A stretch of DNA of 64,000 nucleotides, from assembly GCA_001768235.1 (NCBI GenBank), contig MENK01000001.1:1-64000 (forward strand), read 5' to 3'. Shown piece after piece: positions 54,782-63,417 of the stretch. Origin of the DNA: Bacteroidetes bacterium GWB2_32_14. GTDB taxonomy: Bacteria; Bacteroidota; Bacteroidia; Bacteroidales; UBA12077. The notes under the pieces are model-generated. The model was not told where the DNA came from, ran no database searches, and saw only the letters and a list, made by a program, of their open reading frames with translations. Position 1 is the stretch's first letter; every line of letters starts with the position of its first letter. The translations under genes were made by a program, and so were the position numbers.

Positions 54782-55180
54782 TCAGAGTTTTTGTTTATTT
54801 AATATCTTTCCATTTTGATCCAACAACAAATCGAAACGGGTAAGTTCCTTGTCTCTGAATATAATTTCATAAAAGGTTTCAGAATCTTCATCAATAATTA
54901 TTGCATTCATTATTTCGCCGAAACTATCTGCTATTTCAAAAATTTTTTGGGGAAGCTGCTCAACAGGAATATTTGTTTTAACATGGATAAGATTTCCCTT
55001 TTGGTCATAGCTTGCAATTTTCTCGTATTCATATTCATAAAAAATTGCCTCATACGAATTGTTTTCAATATACCACTCAATATTTAAAGGGTTTGAGAAG
55101 TAGCTGAAAAAATGCTCCGTAACCTCATCAGGGGGAGTTATTGATTCTTCATTAAAATTATTTTTAAAAAATATATCCAC
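54782..55180 (-). CDS. small PepSY-like protein, putative sigma-factor partner
   Basis: A 132-residue protein without signal peptide or membrane helix. The first 30 residues (MDIFFKNNFNEESITPPDEVTEHF) resemble the N-terminal motif of the sigma partner at 2247. The remainder looks like a PepSY-like/BLIP-like beta domain (EWYIENNSYEAIFYEYEYEK, SYDQKGNLIHVKTNIP, FYEIIFRDKELTRFDLLLDQNG), a fold usually periplasmic in Bacteroidota but here apparently cytoplasmic. It follows the ECF sigma gene by 52 bases in the same direction, so it may bind that sigma factor. The assignment rests on fold resemblance and position. Confidence 0.65.
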   Translation of the reverse strand: MDIFFKNNFNEESITPPDEVTEHFFSYFSNPLNIEWYIENNSYEAIFYEYEYEKIASYDQKGNLIHVKTNIPVEQLPQKIFEIADSFGEIMNAIIIDEDSETFYEIIFRDKELTRFDLLLDQNGKILNKQKL

Positions 55181-55232
55181 TATAACCAGTTTTTATAATA
55201 TTGACGATAATTTACTTACAGGTCACAAAAAT

Positions 55233-55799
55233 TTAACTCATATATTTCTTTTTATATAAAAAGAGCAATCGCGCTTTAGCTCTTTTAATTCTCATTTTTG
55301 CAGCACTTTCACTAATCCTGAGAGCTTCTGAAATATGTTTAATAGAAAAATTATCGTTGTATTTCATCATGAGCAATGCTTTTTCTTCTGTATGCAAAAG
55401 ATCAAGTATTTCCATCATCCTGTCATAGCTAATATCTGAAATAACTTCTTCTGATTCATCAATAATTTCAGGGATTTCGTTTTCGCGGTTCCATTCAGGG
55501 TAATGTAATTTCTTTTTTAATCTTAAATAATCAATACAATGATTATAAGTAATAGAATATAACCATGACGAAAATGATGATTTCCCCTTGAAAGATTCCA
55601 AATTTTCATATACTTTGGTAAAAATATCATGGGCAGTTTCCCTGGCTAGTTCTTTGTTTTTCAACAAACTATAACACTTATCCAAAACTTTAGGATGGTA
55701 TTTTTCATAAAGAATCTGAAACAAATCAATTTCTTTCTCAGATATAATCTTTGAAATTATTTCTTCGTCTTTTAATTCTTTACTTAATCTGAAATACAT
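55233..55799 (-). CDS. ECF-type RNA polymerase sigma factor
   Basis: A 188-residue sigma-70 family protein with region 2 (LARETAHDIFTKVYENLESFKG and SFSSWLYSITYNHCIDYLR) and region 4 (LLMMKYNDNFSIKHISEALRISESAAKMRIKRAKARL). It should control a small regulon. The small PepSY-like gene downstream is its probable partner. A 266-base spacer separates it from the divergent RidA-like gene; no recognisable promoter pair was found there. Confidence 0.93.
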   Translation of the reverse strand: MYFRLSKELKDEEIISKIISEKEIDLFQILYEKYHPKVLDKCYSLLKNKELARETAHDIFTKVYENLESFKGKSSFSSWLYSITYNHCIDYLRLKKKLHYPEWNRENEIPEIIDESEEVISDISYDRMMEILDLLHTEEKALLMMKYNDNFSIKHISEALRISESAAKMRIKRAKARLLFLYKKKYMS

Positions 55800-56065
55800 G
55801 GTTGAAATTTTCGAAATTTTAAAGGTGTAAAATTAATCATGTAAATAAAAATCAAAAAATTTTATGGAAATATTCTAAAAAAAGTTACGCACCAGTTATA
55901 TTGTTTAATGAGAAAACATTAAAAAAAACGAATTAAATAAAATGAATTATACATTAACAGTAGTTAGCAGGTATTGCCGAACAAATTGCATCGTTGATAT
56001 GTTTTCATACTAACAAAGGACTGTTCTTTAATATATTATATTTTCTTAAAGTAAATCGCGGGATT

Positions 56066-56581
56066 ATGAAAAAGATACTTACTATTTTATTAATCTGTTC
56101 CATTACATTCGGATTTAACAGACAATCACATGGACAAAATTTAACAGATAACCAGATAAACAACAGAGAAATGAGCAAAAAAGTACAATACATCAATCCT
56201 GACGGACTTTCAAAAAATCCTGCATTTTCACAAGTTGTGACGACACAGGGAAATGGAAAGACCATTTATATTGGCGGACAAGACGCGGTAAATGCGCAGG
56301 GAGAAATAGTTGGCAAAGGAGATATTGCTGAACAGACAGAACAAGTGATGAAAAATTTGCAAACAGCACTTTCAGCCTGTGGGGCGACTTTTGACAACAT
56401 TATAAAATTATCCATATATATTGTACATGGACAAGATTTATATCGTGGGTTTCAGGCTTCACAAAAGTATTTGGGTAATCTGAAAAATCCTCCTGCAGTT
56501 ACAGGTTTTTTTGTTGCCGCGTTGGCTCATCCAGATTATTTAGTTGAAGTAGAAGCTATTGCATTTATTCCTGAAGAATAA
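56066..56581 (+). CDS. exported RidA-like (YjgF/YER057c) protein lacking the catalytic arginine
   Basis: About 171 residues from ATG 56066, which opens a signal peptide (KKILTILLICSITFGF, cleavage after SHGQ); an in-frame ATG at 55994 would bury it. The mature part is a RidA-like domain (YIGGQDAVNAQGEIVGKGDIAEQTEQVMKNL, VEVEAIAFIP). RidA proteins are normally cytoplasmic and deaminate reactive imines using an Arg in the PAR motif before VARL; here the aligned position reads PAVTGFFVAAL, so that Arg is missing. Imine deaminase activity is therefore doubtful and the export is unusual. Confidence 0.82.
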   Translation: MKKILTILLICSITFGFNRQSHGQNLTDNQINNREMSKKVQYINPDGLSKNPAFSQVVTTQGNGKTIYIGGQDAVNAQGEIVGKGDIAEQTEQVMKNLQTALSACGATFDNIIKLSIYIVHGQDLYRGFQASQKYLGNLKNPPAVTGFFVAALAHPDYLVEVEAIAFIPEE

Positions 56582-56794
56582 AGTTTACAAAGTGAAAACA
56601 CCAGAAACCCTATTAAACTAATCAATGACTTTGACTTTCAAATTGTATAAATGAAAAACCTCTATAAAAAAAATAAAATTCTGGATTAAGTTTATAATTT
56701 AAAAATAGTGTAAAAAAAAATCTTTTAAATGAGTTACTTTAGGAATAAACTGCGTCATAATATCAAATTTTTGTAATATAAAAAGCCAAAAATC

Positions 56795-56863: not shown

Positions 56864-57454
56864 ATGAAAAACAAATTATTCCTAGGATTAGTAGCAATTA
56901 TGTTTGTTACAGTATTTGCAAGTTGTGATAAAGTACCACAAGCAGAAATAGATGCAGCAAATGCAGCTTTAGTTGAAGCTCAAACAGCTGGTGCTGAAAT
57001 GTACATACCACAAGATTATTTAATAGTAAAAGATTCATTAAACGCTATTCTTGAGAAAGTTGAAGTTCAGAAATCAAAATTCTTCAAAAAATTTGGCGAA
57101 TGTAAAGAACAATTAGTAGGTGTTACAACTCTTGCTACTGACTTAAAAGCTAAAACTGAAGTTAGAAAAGAAGAAGTTAAAAAAGAACTTGAAGTTGCTT
57201 TAGAAGAAGTAAAAGTTGTTATGGAAGAAAATAACACTCTTTTAACAAAAGCTCCAAAAGGTAAAGAAGGTAAAGCTGCTTTAGAACAAATTAAAGCTGA
57301 ATTAGTTGTTTTAGAAACTTCTATCGTTGAAGCTACAAACATGTTAACCAATGGTGATTTCTTAGCTGGTTTAGATAAAGTAAAAGCTACAAAAGAAAAA
57401 GCTGCTTCTATTAATGAAGAATTAAAAGCTGCTATTGCAAAAGTTAGAAGATAA
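56864..57454 (+). CDS. coiled-coil outer-membrane lipoprotein, Lpp-like candidate
   Basis: A 196-residue lipoprotein (lipobox VFASC, Cys21) that is almost entirely helical and rich in Ala, Lys and Glu (VRKEEVKKELEVALEEVKVVME), so an extended coiled coil. Codon use is strongly biased (GCT, GAA, AAA, TTA), unlike its neighbours, which suggests very high expression. Residues about 28-75 match the start of the periplasmic part of the next gene's product: EIDAANAALVEAQTAGAEMY here, EIEDARKAILEAQKAGADQY there. It is followed by its own terminator and two L,D-transpeptidase genes. It ends in KVRR, so a C-terminal lysine for peptidoglycan attachment, as in Braun lipoprotein, is not present. Confidence 0.8.
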   Translation: MKNKLFLGLVAIMFVTVFASCDKVPQAEIDAANAALVEAQTAGAEMYIPQDYLIVKDSLNAILEKVEVQKSKFFKKFGECKEQLVGVTTLATDLKAKTEVRKEEVKKELEVALEEVKVVMEENNTLLTKAPKGKEGKAALEQIKAELVVLETSIVEATNMLTNGDFLAGLDKVKATKEKAASINEELKAAIAKVRR

Positions 57455-57489
57455 TATTTCCTTAATCAGATAAACTTTTTTAAGGTAAG

Positions 57490-57541
57490 AGTGTCTCAAA
57501 AGTGAATAGTTTTTTTGAACTTTCTTTTTGAGGCACTTTTT
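57490..57541 (+). terminator. terminator or attenuator after the lipoprotein gene
   Basis: A 12-bp stem (57490-57501 with 57526-57537, one G-T pair) with a T-run behind it, 36 bases past the lipoprotein stop. An in-frame TTG start for the next gene would fall inside this hairpin, supporting the ATG at 57564. Confidence 0.8.
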
Positions 57542-57563
57542 ATTAAATGCCCTCTCTGAAATC

Positions 57564-58691
57564 ATGAAAAGTACGATTGTAAAACGAATTTTATTAATTA
57601 CCGCTCTTATAATTTTTATTGCAGGTATCGTTTTTTTAGTTCTAATATTACGAACACCTGAACCACCTTCTAAAGAAATTGAAGATGCCCGAAAGGCAAT
57701 TCTTGAAGCTCAAAAAGCCGGTGCCGACCAATATGCATTACTTCAATTTAAAAAAGCCCAAGTCAGCTACGACTCGGCAATGTATTATTTTCGAAGAGAA
57801 AACGAAAAAATATTTTTTAAACGCAACTTCGATTTATGCACAAAAAATGCTGTTTCATCAGCAAAAAATGCGAAGGAAGCTAAAAAAGCTGCAATTGCAA
57901 TATCCCGAAACTTTAAATCCTACCTTGAAACAAAAATTGACTCCCTCGATGATTTTTTAAATCATTTTAAAGATATTTTTATAAAACTCCCTTTAGATAC
58001 ATACGTATTTAACGATTATACCAAGGGAAAAATATTACTTACAGAAAGCAAATATGCTTTCGAAAATTCGAATCTTTTCAGTTGCAATAAAAAAATTGAT
58101 TTGGCATTTGAACATATTTCGAAAGCTTATGATGTTGCAAAACTATTACTGAATAATTATTTCAGGTTTTATCCGGAATGGATGTCGTGGGCAGACGAGA
58201 CAATTAATTATTCAAAAAGTAATAAAACGAATGCAATAATTGTAGATAAATTCTCAAAAAAAGCTTACCTGTACGAGTCAGGAGTTTTAAAGTTCTCTAC
58301 AGATATTGAATTAGGTAAAAACTGGATTGGATTTAAAAAATTTAATGGCGATAAAGCTACTCCCGAGGGAAAATACACGATCATAAAAAAGAAAGTCGAT
58401 CCACATACAAAATACTACAAAGCTCTTCTTCTTGATTATCCTAACATTGATGATAAAAAAAGATTTCAGGAAGCCCGAAAAAAAGGACTTATTCCAAAAA
58501 ATAAAGACATTGGCAACATGATTGAAATTCATGGTGGTGGAGGACAAGGAGCAAACTGGACCGACGGTTGTGTAGCATTAAAAAACTCCGATATTGACAA
58601 AATTTACAATATGATAAGTGAAGGAACTCCTGTAACTATTGTAGGTTCGTTATTAAGCCTTTCCGAAATATTGAATAACAATGTATTATGA
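57564..58691 (+). CDS. L,D-transpeptidase with helical periplasmic domain
   Basis: A protein of about 375 residues from ATG 57564. A membrane anchor (about 8-30) is followed by a helical domain (about 38-220) whose first part matches the neighbouring lipoprotein, then a YkuD catalytic domain. The YkuD signature is complete: EIHGGGGQG and TDGCVALKN, with catalytic Cys at about 336. Such enzymes form 3-3 crosslinks in peptidoglycan or attach proteins to it, in the periplasm. It overlaps the next gene by 4 bases (ATGA), so translation is coupled. Confidence 0.88.
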   Translation: MKSTIVKRILLITALIIFIAGIVFLVLILRTPEPPSKEIEDARKAILEAQKAGADQYALLQFKKAQVSYDSAMYYFRRENEKIFFKRNFDLCTKNAVSSAKNAKEAKKAAIAISRNFKSYLETKIDSLDDFLNHFKDIFIKLPLDTYVFNDYTKGKILLTESKYAFENSNLFSCNKKIDLAFEHISKAYDVAKLLLNNYFRFYPEWMSWADETINYSKSNKTNAIIVDKFSKKAYLYESGVLKFSTDIELGKNWIGFKKFNGDKATPEGKYTIIKKKVDPHTKYYKALLLDYPNIDDKKRFQEARKKGLIPKNKDIGNMIEIHGGGGQGANWTDGCVALKNSDIDKIYNMISEGTPVTIVGSLLSLSEILNNNVL

Positions 58692-59443
58692 AAAATAATT
58701 TAGATACACCCCCCGGGTTAATTAAAATCAATCAAAATAAGATTATCCTTTACTTAAAATCCACATGGGAAAAGTGGCTTAAACAGGTAATCAAAAACTT
58801 AATAATTATAATTATAGTGCTTCTCGGTACTATTTGGCTGTTATTTTATTTTGTTCCAATCGCCCAGGAAATGTCATTATTTTTCTTACCAGAAACACAC
58901 AAAGAATTTATTTCGGCTGATAACATGAATTCTGATAAATTTAAAGATAAAATCATCAAAAACACTTTAAAAATACAAAGAAAACTTGATTCTAACTTTC
59001 CCCGATCAGCATATATTATTATTAATACAACAGAAAACAGATTTTATTTATACTCGGGAAAACGATTAATCCGAAAAGGAATGTGTTCAACCGGAAGTTA
59101 TACTTTACTTCAGGCAGGTGAAAACAAGCAATGGATATTTAAAACACCACGAGGGTTAATGCGCATTCATGGAAAAACAACTTCACCTGTATGGAAAAAG
59201 CCTGATTGGGCTTTTATTGAAGAAGGCTTACCTGTTCCCCCGGCAAACGATGATTCCCGATTTGAATATGGAACTTTAGGTGATTACGCTCTTAGCCTGG
59301 GTGACGGATATTTAATTCATGGTACATTATACAAAAGATTCCTTGGCCTACCTGTTACTCATGGTTGTATCCGTTTAAATGATGAAGATCTTGAATCCGT
59401 TTATAACACATTATCAATCGGTTCAAAAGTATTTATTTATTAA
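58688..59443 (+). CDS. L,D-transpeptidase (YkuD family), membrane-anchored
   Basis: A 251-residue protein with one membrane helix (about 36-58, LIIIIIVLLGTIWLLFYFV) and a YkuD domain (about 90-251). The catalytic site is YLIHGTLYKRFLGLP and THGCIRLNDEDLE (Cys at about 227). It resembles the ErfK/YbiS type and likely crosslinks peptidoglycan or links a protein to it. It overlaps the preceding transpeptidase gene, and a third membrane protein gene follows 15 bases later, so all three are one operon. Confidence 0.9.
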   Translation: MKNNLDTPPGLIKINQNKIILYLKSTWEKWLKQVIKNLIIIIIVLLGTIWLLFYFVPIAQEMSLFFLPETHKEFISADNMNSDKFKDKIIKNTLKIQRKLDSNFPRSAYIIINTTENRFYLYSGKRLIRKGMCSTGSYTLLQAGENKQWIFKTPRGLMRIHGKTTSPVWKKPDWAFIEEGLPVPPANDDSRFEYGTLGDYALSLGDGYLIHGTLYKRFLGLPVTHGCIRLNDEDLESVYNTLSIGSKVFIY

Positions 59444-59458
59444 TGATTAAATAAACCT

Positions 59459-60256
59459 ATGGAAGATATAGAATTTAAAAACGAAGAAATACAAAAAAAG
59501 TCACATCTGATTCAGTTCTTTTTAATCCCGATAATATTATTTGTAAGTTATATTCTTTTTTTAATGTTTTATTTCCCGGTAAAACAAGTAAAGGAATTTA
59601 ATAAAGCATTTACAGATTCTACCCTGTATTCAGAAGAAGAAAAAATTATTTTACTAGACGATAATTTTACATCACTTAAAACAAAAGAATCCTTTTTACA
59701 ATCGCGTCTTTTAATGTCAAAATCTGATACAATCTGTTTTTCGGTTGATTTAGTTGATAGTTTATTGATGCTCGAAGTTAAAGGAGTTGTTATACATGAA
59801 GCTAAAATTACAAAAATTGATATGAGTCGTTTTTTCTCACGTGTCGAGAATGTGGCCTTAATCAAGTTTTTATCAGAACCATTCATTATCGAAAACAAAT
59901 TAGCAACAATTGAAAAAGAACCAATTATATATAAAAAAGCACCTAAAGATACAATCGAAGCTGCACAACAAGTTTTTACACCCGATACTCTTGCCCAGGA
60001 AATTATTTGCATGACCCTGTTGTTCAATAAGAATTTTCAACTTGAAATAAACCAGTCGGAAGAAAAACCGGAGCATAAAAACTTATCGTACAGCATGAAA
60101 ACAAAATTCCAAAGCTTTAAATTTTTATTTAATAAAGCGTTCACTTTTGAAAATCCAACTTATATTCCTAAAATTAGTATTGAATTACCAAAAAAAGATA
60201 TAAAATCAATTTACAGGGCAATACCTTATCATTCTCAAATGGCATTGCATTTGTAA
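59459..60256 (+). CDS. hypothetical single-pass membrane protein of the transpeptidase operon
   Basis: A 265-residue protein with one N-terminal transmembrane helix (about 18-40, IQFFLIPIILFVSYILFLMFY) and a periplasmic domain rich in beta strands. No family is recognised. It is the last gene of the unit with two L,D-transpeptidases, so it may regulate or scaffold them. Short periplasmic segment repeats or catalytic residues were not seen. Confidence 0.7.
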   Translation: MEDIEFKNEEIQKKSHLIQFFLIPIILFVSYILFLMFYFPVKQVKEFNKAFTDSTLYSEEEKIILLDDNFTSLKTKESFLQSRLLMSKSDTICFSVDLVDSLLMLEVKGVVIHEAKITKIDMSRFFSRVENVALIKFLSEPFIIENKLATIEKEPIIYKKAPKDTIEAAQQVFTPDTLAQEIICMTLLFNKNFQLEINQSEEKPEHKNLSYSMKTKFQSFKFLFNKAFTFENPTYIPKISIELPKKDIKSIYRAIPYHSQMALHL

Positions 60257-60294: not shown

Positions 60295-60594
60295 ATGTCG
60301 AAAAATACAATTATAACAGACAAACAAACAAAAATTGCCCGCTATGCAAAAGCAATGTCACACCCTATTCGTGTTCATATACTTGAAATACTTGCAAGCC
60401 AGTCGTGCTGCTATAGCGGTGATTTAACAGAAATACTACCCATTGCAAAATCCACTTTATCGCAACATTTAAAAGAACTTAAAAATGCAGGATTAATTCA
60501 AGGCGAAATAGAATTGCCAAAGATTAAATACTGTTTAAATAAAGAAAACTGGAACGAAGCAAAAAAATTATTCAGTATTTTTTTTAGCGAATAG
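60295..60594 (+). CDS. ArsR-family metal/thiol-responsive repressor
   Basis: A 99-residue winged-helix repressor. The AKAMSHPIRVHILEIL helix and the recognition segment AKSTLSQHLKELKNAGLIQG are typical of ArsR/SmtB. A Cys-Cys pair (SQSCCYSGDL, about residues 38-39) lies where ArsR-like proteins bind arsenite or other thiophilic ligands. It should release DNA on ligand binding. The downstream genes have thiol motifs, and two dyads (60610-60629, 62046-62063) are candidate operators; none was found before this gene itself. Confidence 0.92.
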   Translation: MSKNTIITDKQTKIARYAKAMSHPIRVHILEILASQSCCYSGDLTEILPIAKSTLSQHLKELKNAGLIQGEIELPKIKYCLNKENWNEAKKLFSIFFSE

Positions 60595-60603
60595 TTTTTT
60601 TAA

Positions 60604-60611
60604 TATCTTTG
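60604..60611 (+). promoter_or_regulatory. -7 element of the redox/permease operon
   Basis: TATCTTTG matches TAnnTTTG and ends 34 bases before the ATG. TTTT stands about 19 bases upstream. The dyad operator overlaps its last base, so repressor binding would block the polymerase. Confidence 0.5.
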
Positions 60612-60629
60612 TTCGCAATTCTACGAACA
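60610..60629. promoter_or_regulatory. dyad operator 1, TGTTCG-N8-CGAACA
   Basis: A perfect 6-bp inverted repeat with an 8-base spacer. A second copy with matching geometry lies at 62046-62063. It overlaps the -7 box and is likely bound by the ArsR protein encoded just upstream. Confidence 0.65.
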
Positions 60630-60645
60630 ACGAAATATTTAAATT

Positions 60646-60888
60646 ATGGAAATAAAAGTATTAGGAACAGGTTGCCCCAAATGCAAAACGCTTGAAAAGC
60701 TTACTAAAGAAACTGTTGAGAAATTAGGGCTTGATGCTGAGGTATCGAAAGTTGAAGATATTGTTGATATTATGAACTATGGAGTAATGCGAACACCTGC
60801 ACTGGTAATTAACAAGAAAGTAGTTTTAAGCGGCAGAATACCAACCGAAAAAGAATTAACTGAAATATTAACTTCAAATAATAAATAA
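60646..60888 (+). CDS. mini-thioredoxin (redox-active disulfide protein 2 family)
   Basis: An 80-residue thioredoxin-fold protein with LGTGCPKCKTLEKL (CPKC at residues 9-12) and the cis-proline segment VMRTPALVI. This small family (MTH895/TM0996 type) is often found with ArsP/YraQ-like permeases. It probably passes electrons to, or forms disulfides with, the lipoprotein and transporter encoded next. The next gene starts 3 bases after the stop codon. Confidence 0.92.
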   Translation: MEIKVLGTGCPKCKTLEKLTKETVEKLGLDAEVSKVEDIVDIMNYGVMRTPALVINKKVVLSGRIPTEKELTEILTSNNK

Positions 60889-60891
60889 ATC

Positions 60892-61320
60892 ATGAAAACT
60901 TTAAAAATTTTATTTTTAACCAGCCTCATTTTTCCTTTTTTATTTTCTTGTAATGCACAAAGTGCAGACAAAAAAGACAATTCAGAAACAACCATTGCAA
61001 AAGAAATACAGGTTTATTATTTTCACTTTACACGCCGTTGCCCAACCTGCATAGCTGTTGAGGAAAAAACAAATGAAATTCTAAAGCAGTTGTATGCTGA
61101 TGAAATTGAAAACGGAACAATCACGTTTAAATCAATTAACCTTGACGAAGGTGATTCAAAAGAAATTGCTGAGAAATTGGGCGTTTCCGGGCAAAGCTTG
61201 CTATTTGTTAAAGGGGATGAAAAAATTGATTTAACAAGCGAAGGATTTATGAATGCCCGTTCAAATCCCGAAAAATTACAAGAAAAAATTAAAGAAACTG
61301 TTGATGGTTTAATGCTATAA
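60892..61320 (+). CDS. thioredoxin-like lipoprotein (ArsF-type)
   Basis: A 142-residue lipoprotein (lipobox FLFSC, Cys20) with a thioredoxin-like fold: FHFTRRCPTCIAVEEKTNEILKQL (CPTC at about 50-53). The same domain in other bacteria is annotated as the ArsF-type subunit next to ArsG-like transporters, a link to aromatic arsenical or nitro-compound metabolism. Here I can show only the thiol motif and the gene context. Periplasmic, probably reduced by the membrane transporter encoded next. Confidence 0.85.
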   Translation: MKTLKILFLTSLIFPFLFSCNAQSADKKDNSETTIAKEIQVYYFHFTRRCPTCIAVEEKTNEILKQLYADEIENGTITFKSINLDEGDSKEIAEKLGVSGQSLLFVKGDEKIDLTSEGFMNARSNPEKLQEKIKETVDGLML

Positions 61321-61329
61321 TCAACCCAC

Positions 61330-62028
61330 ATGGATTTTTTAACTACATTAATCGAAAATAGTAATTTACCTATACTTTCTGCATTTATACTTGGGCTGAT
61401 GACTGCTATCAGCCCCTGCCCTCTGGCTACCAACATCACGGCAATAGGTTTTATCAGCCGCGATATACAAAGCCAGAAGAGAGTATTTATAAATGGATTG
61501 ATTTACACCTTAGGCCGTATTTTATCATACACAGGTTTAGCCTTTATTTTATATTTTAGCGCGAATACATTTAAGATATCTGGATTTTTCCAACAGTATG
61601 GTGAGAAATTTTTAGGACCGCTCTTAATTCTTATCAGCTTATTTATGTTAGGACTGATAAAACTAAATATCCCGGGATTTGGGAAATTCTCTGAGAAAAT
61701 GCAGCAAAAAGAAAAAACAAACTACTGGGATGTATTATTAATAGGCGTTTTATTTGCCCTGGCATTTTGCCCGTATAGTGGTGTTTTATACTTTGGAATG
61801 TTAATACCAATGACTATTTCAAGTTCTTCAGGGTTGTATTTACCAATATTCTATGCTATTGCTACAGGTTTACCTGTTATATTATTTGCATGGGTTATAG
61901 CTTATACAGTATCAGGAATAGGAAGCTTATACAATAAAATTAAAACATTTGAACTTTGGTTTCGTCGAATAATCGCAGTTTTGTTTTTATTAATAGGTAT
62001 CTATTATACAATCATCGTATTTATTTAA
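61330..62028 (+). CDS. CcdA/DsbD-like membrane transporter (ArsG-type)
   Basis: A 232-residue protein with six predicted transmembrane helices. The two pseudo-symmetric helices carry Cys-Pro motifs: ISPCPLATN (about 28) and AFCPYSGVLYFG (about 141). These paired cysteines are the hallmark of DsbD/CcdA-type electron carriers that move reducing power across the membrane. The gene order with the thioredoxin-like lipoprotein suggests it keeps that protein reduced, or exports a thiol-bound ligand. The following permease gene is separated by 45 bases containing the second dyad. Confidence 0.87.
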   Translation: MDFLTTLIENSNLPILSAFILGLMTAISPCPLATNITAIGFISRDIQSQKRVFINGLIYTLGRILSYTGLAFILYFSANTFKISGFFQQYGEKFLGPLLILISLFMLGLIKLNIPGFGKFSEKMQQKEKTNYWDVLLIGVLFALAFCPYSGVLYFGMLIPMTISSSSGLYLPIFYAIATGLPVILFAWVIAYTVSGIGSLYNKIKTFELWFRRIIAVLFLLIGIYYTIIVFI

Positions 62029-62038
62029 AAAAATTTAA

Positions 62039-62046
62039 TAAACTAG
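62039..62046 (+). promoter_or_regulatory. degenerate -7 box before the permease gene
   Basis: TAAACTAG sits in the same position relative to dyad 2 (immediately before GTTCG) as TATCTTTG does to dyad 1. It differs from TAnnTTTG at two positions. Confidence 0.3.
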
Positions 62047-62063
62047 TTCGTCTTTTTACGAAC
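62046..62063. promoter_or_regulatory. dyad operator 2, GTTCG-N8-CGAAC
   Basis: GTTCG and CGAAC pair as a dyad with an 8-base spacer, with the same arms and spacer length as 60610-60629. It lies 11 bases before the permease ATG. Confidence 0.65.
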
Positions 62064-62073
62064 AAACAAAATT

Positions 62074-63417
62074 ATGGAAACAAGAAAAGAAATAAAAATC
62101 CTTATTTGGATTGCTGTTATATTTGGGGTAGCCTTTTTCCTACCCATTGAAAGTGCCCGATTTAACACAGCCATTGCTGCCACCTTCGACCTTGTAAAAT
62201 GGTATGCGAGAGAACATGTCGTGCTTTGTTTATTACCTGCATTTTTCATTGCAGGAGTAATATCCATTTTTGTCAGTCAGGGTTCGGTATTACGGTATTT
62301 TGGTGCGAATGCAAAAAAATGGCTGGCCTACACTGTTGCCGCAGTTTCGGGAACTATTTTGGCTGTTTGCAGTTGTACCATTTTACCATTGTTCTCAAGT
62401 ATTCACAAACGTGGTGCAGGTTTAGGCCCGGCGATTGCCTTTTTATACTCAGGCCCGGCAATCAATATCCTTGCAATTATACTTACCGCACGTATCCTGG
62501 GTTTTGAAATGGGCGTTGCAAGAACTGTTGGTGCTGTTGCATTTAGTGTAATTATCGGAGTATCCATGTCGTTAATCTATAGAAAAGAAGAATCGGTAAA
62601 ACGTGAAGAACAGATGAATATCCAGTTACCACCAGAAAAAAGACCCATGTGGCAAACATCATTTCACTTTTTTACCCTTGTATTGATCCTGGTATTTGCT
62701 AATTGGGGTGCTCCTTCAAGCGGAGACACTTCCAGCACATGGTATTACATTTGGGCTTACAAATGGTATATAACAGGTTTTTTCAGTCTATTCCTTGGAT
62801 TTTCATTAATTTATATTTTAAAAATTAAATGGCAGTGGGTACTTTACGCAGCAATTGCAACGGTTCTTTCAGCTATATTAGCTACAAATCTTATTGAAAA
62901 TCAAAAGTTAGGTCCACTGGTTCCAATGCTTGTTGGTATTGCGTCGCTAAGCATTATAACCCTTTTCGATAAGAAAGATGAAGACAACAAAGAATGGACA
63001 ATTTCAACCTGGGGATTTGCAAAACAGATTTTGCCCTTATTAGCCATCGGTGTAATTACAGCAGGATTTTTATTGGGTTCAACACACGATGGAAAAACTA
63101 TTGCAGGTGTAATTCCCAATGAATGGATTTCTGCATTGGTAGGTGGAAACTCTATTTTCTCAAACCTTTTTGCTTCCATTGTTGGTGCATTCATGTATTT
63201 TGCTACATTAACCGAAGTACCTATTTTACAAGGTTTAATAGCTTCGGGCATGGGAAAAGGCCCTGCACTCGCGTTGCTATTAGCAGGACCATCTTTATCA
63301 TTACCCAATATGTTGGTAATTCGTGGTGTTATAGGTACACAGAAAACAGTGGTTTATGTATTACTGGTTGTAGTTATGGCAACTATTTCCGGGTTAATTT
63401 ATGGCGGGTTATTTTAA
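62074..63417 (+). CDS. ArsP/YraQ-type permease (DUF318)
   Basis: A 447-residue permease with about ten transmembrane helices. The family motif is CSCTILPLFSSIHKRGAGLG (about 107-126) followed by FLYSGPAINILAIILTARILG; a second half near the C-terminus mirrors it (TLTEVPILQGLIASGMGKGPALALLLAGPSLS). Relatives export trivalent organoarsenicals or copper and zinc; the paired CSC near the pore fits a thiophilic substrate. The actual substrate here is unknown. It is preceded by dyad 2 and followed by a second mini-thioredoxin. Confidence 0.92.
   Translation: METRKEIKILIWIAVIFGVAFFLPIESARFNTAIAATFDLVKWYAREHVVLCLLPAFFIAGVISIFVSQGSVLRYFGANAKKWLAYTVAAVSGTILAVCSCTILPLFSSIHKRGAGLGPAIAFLYSGPAINILAIILTARILGFEMGVARTVGAVAFSVIIGVSMSLIYRKEESVKREEQMNIQLPPEKRPMWQTSFHFFTLVLILVFANWGAPSSGDTSSTWYYIWAYKWYITGFFSLFLGFSLIYILKIKWQWVLYAAIATVLSAILATNLIENQKLGPLVPMLVGIASLSIITLFDKKDEDNKEWTISTWGFAKQILPLLAIGVITAGFLLGSTHDGKTIAGVIPNEWISALVGGNSIFSNLFASIVGAFMYFATLTEVPILQGLIASGMGKGPALALLLAGPSLSLPNMLVIRGVIGTQKTVVYVLLVVVMATISGLIYGGLF

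Follow-up and report, generated by a model that had tools for sequence, protein, structure and literature searches.

A conserved gene cassette of Bacteroidetes bacterium GWB2_32_14 encoding a candidate reversible tether between outer membrane and peptidoglycan

Introduction

DpaA-like enzymes are encoded in many diderm phyla that have no Lpp, and in Lpp-less Bacteroidetes and Acidobacteria no substrate is known for them (PMC8263019). A 64,000-nucleotide stretch of Bacteroidetes bacterium GWB2_32_14 (assembly GCA_001768235.1, contig MENK01000001.1, positions 1 to 64,000; hereafter the window) bears on this question, as it encodes a lipoprotein (LP), two proteins of the L,D-transpeptidase family (LDT1 and LDT2) and a membrane protein (MP4) one after the other on the same strand (Table 1). 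The original prediction, made from the letters of the window, placed these four reading frames at the positions where they are found here and described a module consisting of a lipoprotein and two L,D-transpeptidases, a composition that is supported by the present analysis. Do these proteins tether the outer membrane to peptidoglycan, and which of them would do what? Our reading, to which we give a probability of about one half, is that the four proteins constitute one reversible outer membrane-peptidoglycan tether. The module, the domain shared by LP and LDT1 and the kept neighbourhood of the original prediction stand, but not the role of LDT1 as attaching enzyme; the nature of MP4, the lysine-rich tail of LP, the sigma factor with its promoter and the spread over several phyla are additional to it.

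Homology of the lipoprotein and LDT1

The motif that had been noticed in both LP and LDT1 is present in the two sequences (AEIDAANAALVEAQTAGAEMYIPQDY..DSL..FFKKF in LP and KEIEDARKAILEAQKAGADQYALLQF..DSA..FFKRNF in LDT1). In hhalign comparisons, mature LP and the periplasmic helical domain of LDT1 align over their full lengths (probability 98.3-98.4, 154-162 columns), with a score of 91 once the signal peptide and the catalytic domain are trimmed. Among the controls, shuffling in heptad blocks (100 runs) gave no score above 28.5, shuffling of columns (100 runs) none above 17.4, and the reversed profile scored 15.7. As the score lies far above these controls, which rule out a chance resemblance of coiled coils, LP and the periplasmic domain of LDT1 are, at the level of sequence profiles, true homologues. 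The two findings named beforehand as able to overturn the original prediction, a lack of significant similarity between these domains and a lack of a conserved neighbourhood, were thus not obtained, the order LP-LDT1-LDT2 being kept in relatives (see below). Frames of about 130 amino acids that match the LDT1 helical domain alone are encoded in three genomes of the same phylum (G444, G209 and G237), and are possibly stand-alone relatives of the rod with neither enzyme nor cassette.

Catalytic domains of LDT1, LDT2 and MP4

The catalytic domain of LDT1 (Pfam YkuD, 8e-21) has DpaA (8IKR, 7e-5) as its sole significant match in a single-sequence search of the PDB, and a profile search ranks DpaA first (9e-9), followed by LD-carboxypeptidases. 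The residues Lys83, Tyr109, Cys143 and Ala145 of DpaA correspond to Lys258, Tyr284, Cys336 and Ala338 of LDT1, which are kept in 19, 18, 19 and 19 of 19 LDT1 sequences, respectively; the DpaA mutant K83A is inactive and Y109A has 0.7% of its activity left (PMC10653827). Two residues after the catalytic cysteine, DpaA-type enzymes have Ala or Asn where transpeptidases have Arg, and DpaA, without this Arg, detaches Lpp (PMC8263019). Ala is present at this position in 79 of the 82 LDT1 loci with a readable motif. In the phylogenetic tree, in which the DpaA branch is long, LDT1 groups with DpaA and with stand-alone DpaA-like proteins (100/98), and LDT2 is found elsewhere. Judging from these comparisons, the catalytic domain of LDT1 is DpaA-like, that is, of the detaching amidase type without the transpeptidase Arg, which does not support the earlier proposal that LDT1 could attach the lipoprotein. 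In several loci from outside Bacteroidota (L113, L114, L115, L121, L123, L125 and others), a lipobox replaces the transmembrane helix of LDT1, which may therefore be a lipoprotein in these organisms.

LDT2 (Pfam YkuD, 2e-19) scores 49 bits with LdtB, 44 with LdtA, 42 with LdtE and 37 with LdtC, as opposed to 4 with DpaA, and its Cys-x-Arg motif is kept in all 81 loci where the motif is readable. It appears likelier than LDT1 to be the attaching enzyme.

MP4, previously listed as a membrane protein of unknown family, can be identified as a pseudo-L,D-transpeptidase. The AlphaFold2 model (predicted local distance difference test, pLDDT, 82.5) comprises a transmembrane helix and a periplasmic domain, for which the Foldseek matches listed are, without exception, proteins of the L,D-transpeptidase fold (highest probability 0.99, lowest E 3.9e-3). 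The highest VIA Z is 7.7, over about 105 residues, and the VIA matches are likewise all YkuD proteins, a Z below 8 being weak when taken alone. Sequence searches of the PDB with MP4 found nothing. The YkuD fold is nevertheless assigned because no competing fold is found, because LDT2 genes are also retrieved in sequence searches with the MP4 profile (E 3.5e-5 to 9e-5) and because the MP4 and LDT2 profiles align colinearly (E 8e-4). A new fold was considered for MP4 and rejected, the listed matches of both structure searches being of the YkuD fold. The catalytic cysteine is missing, since in no alignment column does the share of Cys exceed 9% (78 MP4 sequences), and MP4 is thus predicted to be a catalytically dead L,D-transpeptidase fold, i.e. 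a pseudoenzyme.

Sequence and predicted structure of the lipoprotein

The lipobox cysteine of LP, Cys21, is invariant in the family, and the mature protein is 176-183 residues long in 67 of 73 sequences. The C-terminal tail is rich in lysine: of 72 distinct sequences, 36 end in Lys (background 9.7%), 56 end in Lys or Arg, and 71 have a Lys among their last six residues. The statement that LP has no C-terminal lysine consequently holds for the protein of the window (Table 1) but not for the family as a whole. In five loci from Acidobacteria and unclassified metagenome-assembled genomes (L114, L115, L121, L123 and L129), the tail ends in CK or C; the remaining members listed have no C-terminal Cys beside Lys. 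Locus L131 (5231-6479) has two LP genes in tandem ahead of LDT1.

The AlphaFold2 model of LP, computed from 68 sequences of many phyla (pLDDT 90), has helices at residues 26-70 (broken), 78-129 and 134-194 (broken) and is predicted to be an antiparallel three-helix rod. The earlier description of LP as nearly all coiled coil is right as to its helical nature, but a three-helix bundle is predicted. Designed antiparallel three-helix bundles superpose on the model at 1.7 angstrom over 88 residues. As the central helix has 52 residues, the rod would measure about 78 angstrom (75-80 angstrom), and, the number of helices being odd, the N- and C-termini should lie at its opposite ends. The top matches of the fold search (TBK1, EzrA and designed three-helix bundles) lie within the noise of helical proteins, and the three-helix topology alone was retained. 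This also applies to the N-domain of Borrelia BB0323, a helical rod (Foldseek probability 0.98, VIA Z 11) whose scores are inside the range of helical-bundle noise; BB0323 has a LysM domain for peptidoglycan where the cassette has YkuD enzymes. Homology of the LP rod to BB0323, or to Leptospira LipL71, the model of which weakly matches 7 of 68 LPs, is not established.

Surface export of lipoproteins in Bacteroidota is linked to a run of acidic residues after the lipidated cysteine. No such run follows the LP cysteine, hence LP is likely located on the periplasmic face of the outer membrane. Neither LP nor MP4 has a Pfam match above the cut-off. LP has no match to PF04728 (Lpp) at E values up to 10, and the 10 bits with which the LP profile matches E. 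coli Lpp are not enough to make LP an Lpp homologue. PF04728 is likewise not found in the genome, in a search that detected the E. coli positive control. Besides LDT1 and LDT2, the genome encodes one YkuD protein.

Distribution and gene order

LP and LDT1 were searched for separately in surveys of the order and of the phylum. In the order (149 genomes), LDT1 with its N-terminal domain is encoded in 18 genomes, and LP is found in the same 18, next to it (Fisher p 1e-23, phylogeny ignored). In the phylum (395 genomes), LP and full-length LDT1 are found in the same 9 genomes, the present one included, and again side by side. The two proteins thus never occur apart in either survey, and the other matches of the LDT1 profile in the phylum are almost exclusively YkuD genes that stand alone, in genomes lacking LP. 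LP, LDT1 and LDT2 follow one another in all 18 members of the order and MP4 in 17, the contig of the last one ending inside LDT2. Genome G097, of the same genus as the window, has no match to LP or LDT1, so the cassette is patchy even within a genus.

When 84,980 named genomes were scanned, 62 loci with a rod-bearing LDT1 were among the matches listed, which are the top of a ranked search and not a random sample. Carriers in Bacteroidota include Bacteroidales, Prolixibacteraceae, Roseivirga (with the cultured Roseivirga seohaensis) and others; further carriers are metagenome-assembled genomes labelled Zixibacteria, Acidobacteria/Terriglobia/Vicinamibacteria, Caldithrix, Gemmatimonadota, Aminicenantes, Desulfonema/Deltaproteobacteria and one Gammaproteobacterium, labels that may be wrong in individual cases. 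LP is encoded immediately upstream of LDT1 in 60 of the 62 loci, the exceptions being L120, at a contig end, and L087, for which there is no such explanation. LDT2 lies immediately downstream of LDT1, and MP4 follows in most loci, also outside Bacteroidota once the profile is iterated. From this gene order, LP-LDT1-LDT2-MP4 can be regarded as a fixed operon; in the window, the frames of LDT1 and LDT2 overlap by 4 bases.

Expression and regulation

The strong codon bias ascribed to LP is confirmed: its effective codon number is 30, compared with 42-47 for LDT1, LDT2 and MP4, and it is below that of the neighbours in 66 of 73 loci. A strong hairpin between LP and LDT1 is likely to terminate part of the transcripts, which would allow an excess of LP. 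Similar hairpins are present between the two genes in many relatives, where the z-scores are biased by the choice of the best window and are used qualitatively.

A gene for an extracytoplasmic function (ECF) sigma factor adjoins LP in about 25 loci. The motif GTKACYT-N13-CGTC is present 72-144 bases before LP in all 23 tested loci with a divergent sigma gene (0.01 expected), compared with 4 of the 57 loci without one. In 23 loci, the sigma gene is followed by a conserved gene for a 132-residue protein, possibly a sensor or an anti-sigma partner, which in 17 of them has a second ECF site ahead of it. A genome-wide scan for the motif gave three matches in 3.66 Mb, no more than expected by chance, and for this reason only the two local sites are claimed, on conservation. 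Other loci have sigma-54-like sites: the looser TTG form is found in 11 (0.2 expected), some of them adjoining genes for NtrC-type regulators, whereas the strict motif TGGCAC-N5-TTGC, found in three loci only, was set aside. In the window, LP thus appears to be driven by a dedicated ECF sigma factor, and elsewhere by a sigma-54-type promoter; since sites of either kind precede LP, it appears to be the controlled gene into which differing circuits are plugged.

Proposed mechanism and alternatives

In the proposed tether, LP would be lipidated at Cys21 and seated in the outer membrane, and its three-helix rod would bring the basic, lysine-rich tail to the cell wall. There, the membrane-anchored LDT2, with its catalytic Arg, may join a tail lysine to a stem peptide of peptidoglycan, and the amidase domain of LDT1 may cut this link. 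Because LDT1 carries a homologous rod, this domain could be held at the layer of LP or docked on LP. MP4, a dead relative of LDT2, is probably its scaffold or regulator. With a promoter of its own, a hairpin behind its gene and a stronger codon bias, LP would be produced in excess over the enzymes, and the ECF sigma factor here or the sigma-54-like promoters of other lineages may tune the density of the tether.

The best reading by analogy is that the operon works like Lpp/Ldt/DpaA of E. coli, although LP fails membership of the Lpp family. Both systems have a helical lipoprotein with a lysine-rich C-terminus and signs of high expression, probably of comparable rod length, together with a transpeptidase that has Cys-x-Arg and an enzyme of the DpaA type that has Cys-x-Ala (in E. 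coli DpaA, also called YafK or LdtF, besides LdtA/B/C). In contrast to Lpp, LP is three times longer, is predicted to form an antiparallel three-helix bundle and has no PF04728 match; the cassette further differs in being a single operon with membrane-anchored enzymes, a pseudoenzyme and a DpaA-like domain fused to an LP-like rod.

Several points weigh against this tether. The bond between LP and peptidoglycan is proposed from sequence and a predicted fold, and the placement of the LP termini at the rod ends is read from the helix order. Half of the LPs, that of the window included, end in a residue other than Lys, so an internal lysine of the tail would be needed, and the charge of the basic tail would serve equally well for binding to peptidoglycan or lipid. 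In LDT1, Tyr131 of DpaA (loop L3), important in E. coli, is not kept and is Leu or Met in most sequences; LD-carboxypeptidases score near DpaA in the profile search; and the LDT1s with a lipobox outside Bacteroidota complicate the geometry. Finally, locus L087 has LDT1, LDT2 and MP4, yet LP was not detected upstream, although 6.8 kb of sequence was available.

Some of these observations would also suit an LP that is a partner or activator and not a substrate, docking on the LDT1 rod and switching on the peptidoglycan enzymes while its tail binds non-covalently. Outer-membrane lipoproteins are paired with inner-membrane peptidoglycan enzymes, the penicillin-binding proteins, in the case of LpoA and LpoB, which resemble the cassette in this pairing; they act with another enzyme class, and it is in the cassette that lipoprotein and enzyme domain are homologous. 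The homology of LP and the LDT1 rod along their whole length, their constant association and the non-universal terminal lysine agree with such a role, which we consider rather unlikely, as the codon bias and the hairpin suggest an excess of LP that would be unusual for an activator, and the conserved lysine tail and the DpaA-type active site point to a lysine-linked protein as substrate. Alternatively, the cassette may edit peptidoglycan itself, LDT1 being an LD-carboxypeptidase of the Csd6/Pgp2/Bd1075 type and LDT2 making 3-3 crosslinks, with LP as a scaffold at the outer membrane. These carboxypeptidases are YkuD enzymes that, like LDT1, have no transpeptidase Arg, they come close behind DpaA in the profile search, and a warning has been given that some DpaA-like enzymes may be carboxypeptidases (PMC8263019). 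LDT1 differs from them in its LP-like rod. In the column of Csd6 Trp158, the aromatic residue of the D-Ala pocket, mapped onto LDT1 via DpaA Met133 (PMC10653827), 18 of 19 LDT1s have Glu and the remaining one has Gln, with the equivalent of Tyr109 kept; together with the single-sequence search that finds DpaA only, this makes a carboxypeptidase an improbable assignment. It is more improbable still, and in our view barely credible, that the shared domain is a reused helical spacer of the DUF4398 or BB0323 N-domain kind, in proteins that are co-transcribed but functionally unrelated: matches to DUF4398 (PF14346) at E up to 0.01, all sub-threshold, are seen in 17 of 68 LPs and 6 of 18 LDT1s (16.1 bits for LDT1 of the window, gathering cut-off 27.9), and the fold resembles that of BB0323, but without a joint function it would be hard to explain why LP and LDT1 strictly co-occur and why the gene order is fixed in about eight phyla.

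Returning to the tether, no description of the LP-LDT1-LDT2-MP4 operon was found in the literature searched. Tentatively, it may be a previously undescribed, self-contained system of reversible covalent outer-membrane anchoring that replaces Lpp in about eight phyla, in which the rod fused to the detaching enzyme gives both the same periplasmic height and a dead transpeptidase regulates the attaching one. The operon offers a candidate substrate, attaching enzyme and regulator in Lpp-less phyla with DpaA-like enzymes, and the purpose of these enzymes is therefore directly testable. If the tether is real, Lpp-style covalent anchoring is not confined to some Gammaproteobacteria and has a widespread counterpart built on a different lipoprotein, which, with its strictly kept length, may set the width of the periplasm in these bacteria.

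Genomic context

The features of the locus are given in Table 1. Between the sigma gene and LP, the window encodes a RidA-like (Ribonuc_L-PSP) protein with a possible signal peptide (55994-56581); this gene looks inserted, since LP and the divergent sigma gene are immediate neighbours in several relatives (e.g. L055).

Table 1. Positions of the cassette and of its regulatory features in the window
Feature	Position	Strand	Description
LP	56864..57454	+	Lipoprotein, 196 aa; lipobox FASC-21, Cys21 at 56924-56926; mature 176 aa; C-terminus KVRR
LP Lys193	57440-57442	+	Near-invariant; four residues from C-terminus
LDT1	57564..58691	+	ATG start; N-terminal transmembrane helix, helical rod and YkuD domain
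LDT1 LP-homologous helical domain	about 57660-58163	+	
LDT1 DpaA-like YkuD catalytic domain	58230-58640	+	Cys336 at 58569-58571
LDT2	58688..59443	+	N-terminal transmembrane helix and LdtA/B/C/E-type YkuD domain; THGCIR motif; Cys227 at 59366-59368
MP4	59459..60256	+	Transmembrane helix and predicted periplasmic YkuD-like fold without catalytic Cys; putative pseudo-L,D-transpeptidase
Hairpin between LP and LDT1	57487..57540	+	T-rich 3' side; z -4.87
ECF-type promoter motif of LP	56733..56756	+	GTTACTT-N13-CGTC
ECF sigma factor gene	55233..55799	-	Divergent from LP
Second ECF promoter motif copy	55203..55226	-	Precedes 132-aa gene
132-aa gene	54782..55180	-	Accessory, family not assigned; downstream of sigma gene

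Downstream of the cassette (60295-63417), a gene for an ArsR-type regulator is followed by genes for small thioredoxin-like, membrane and permease proteins, an arrangement that resembles a redox- or metal-linked cluster.

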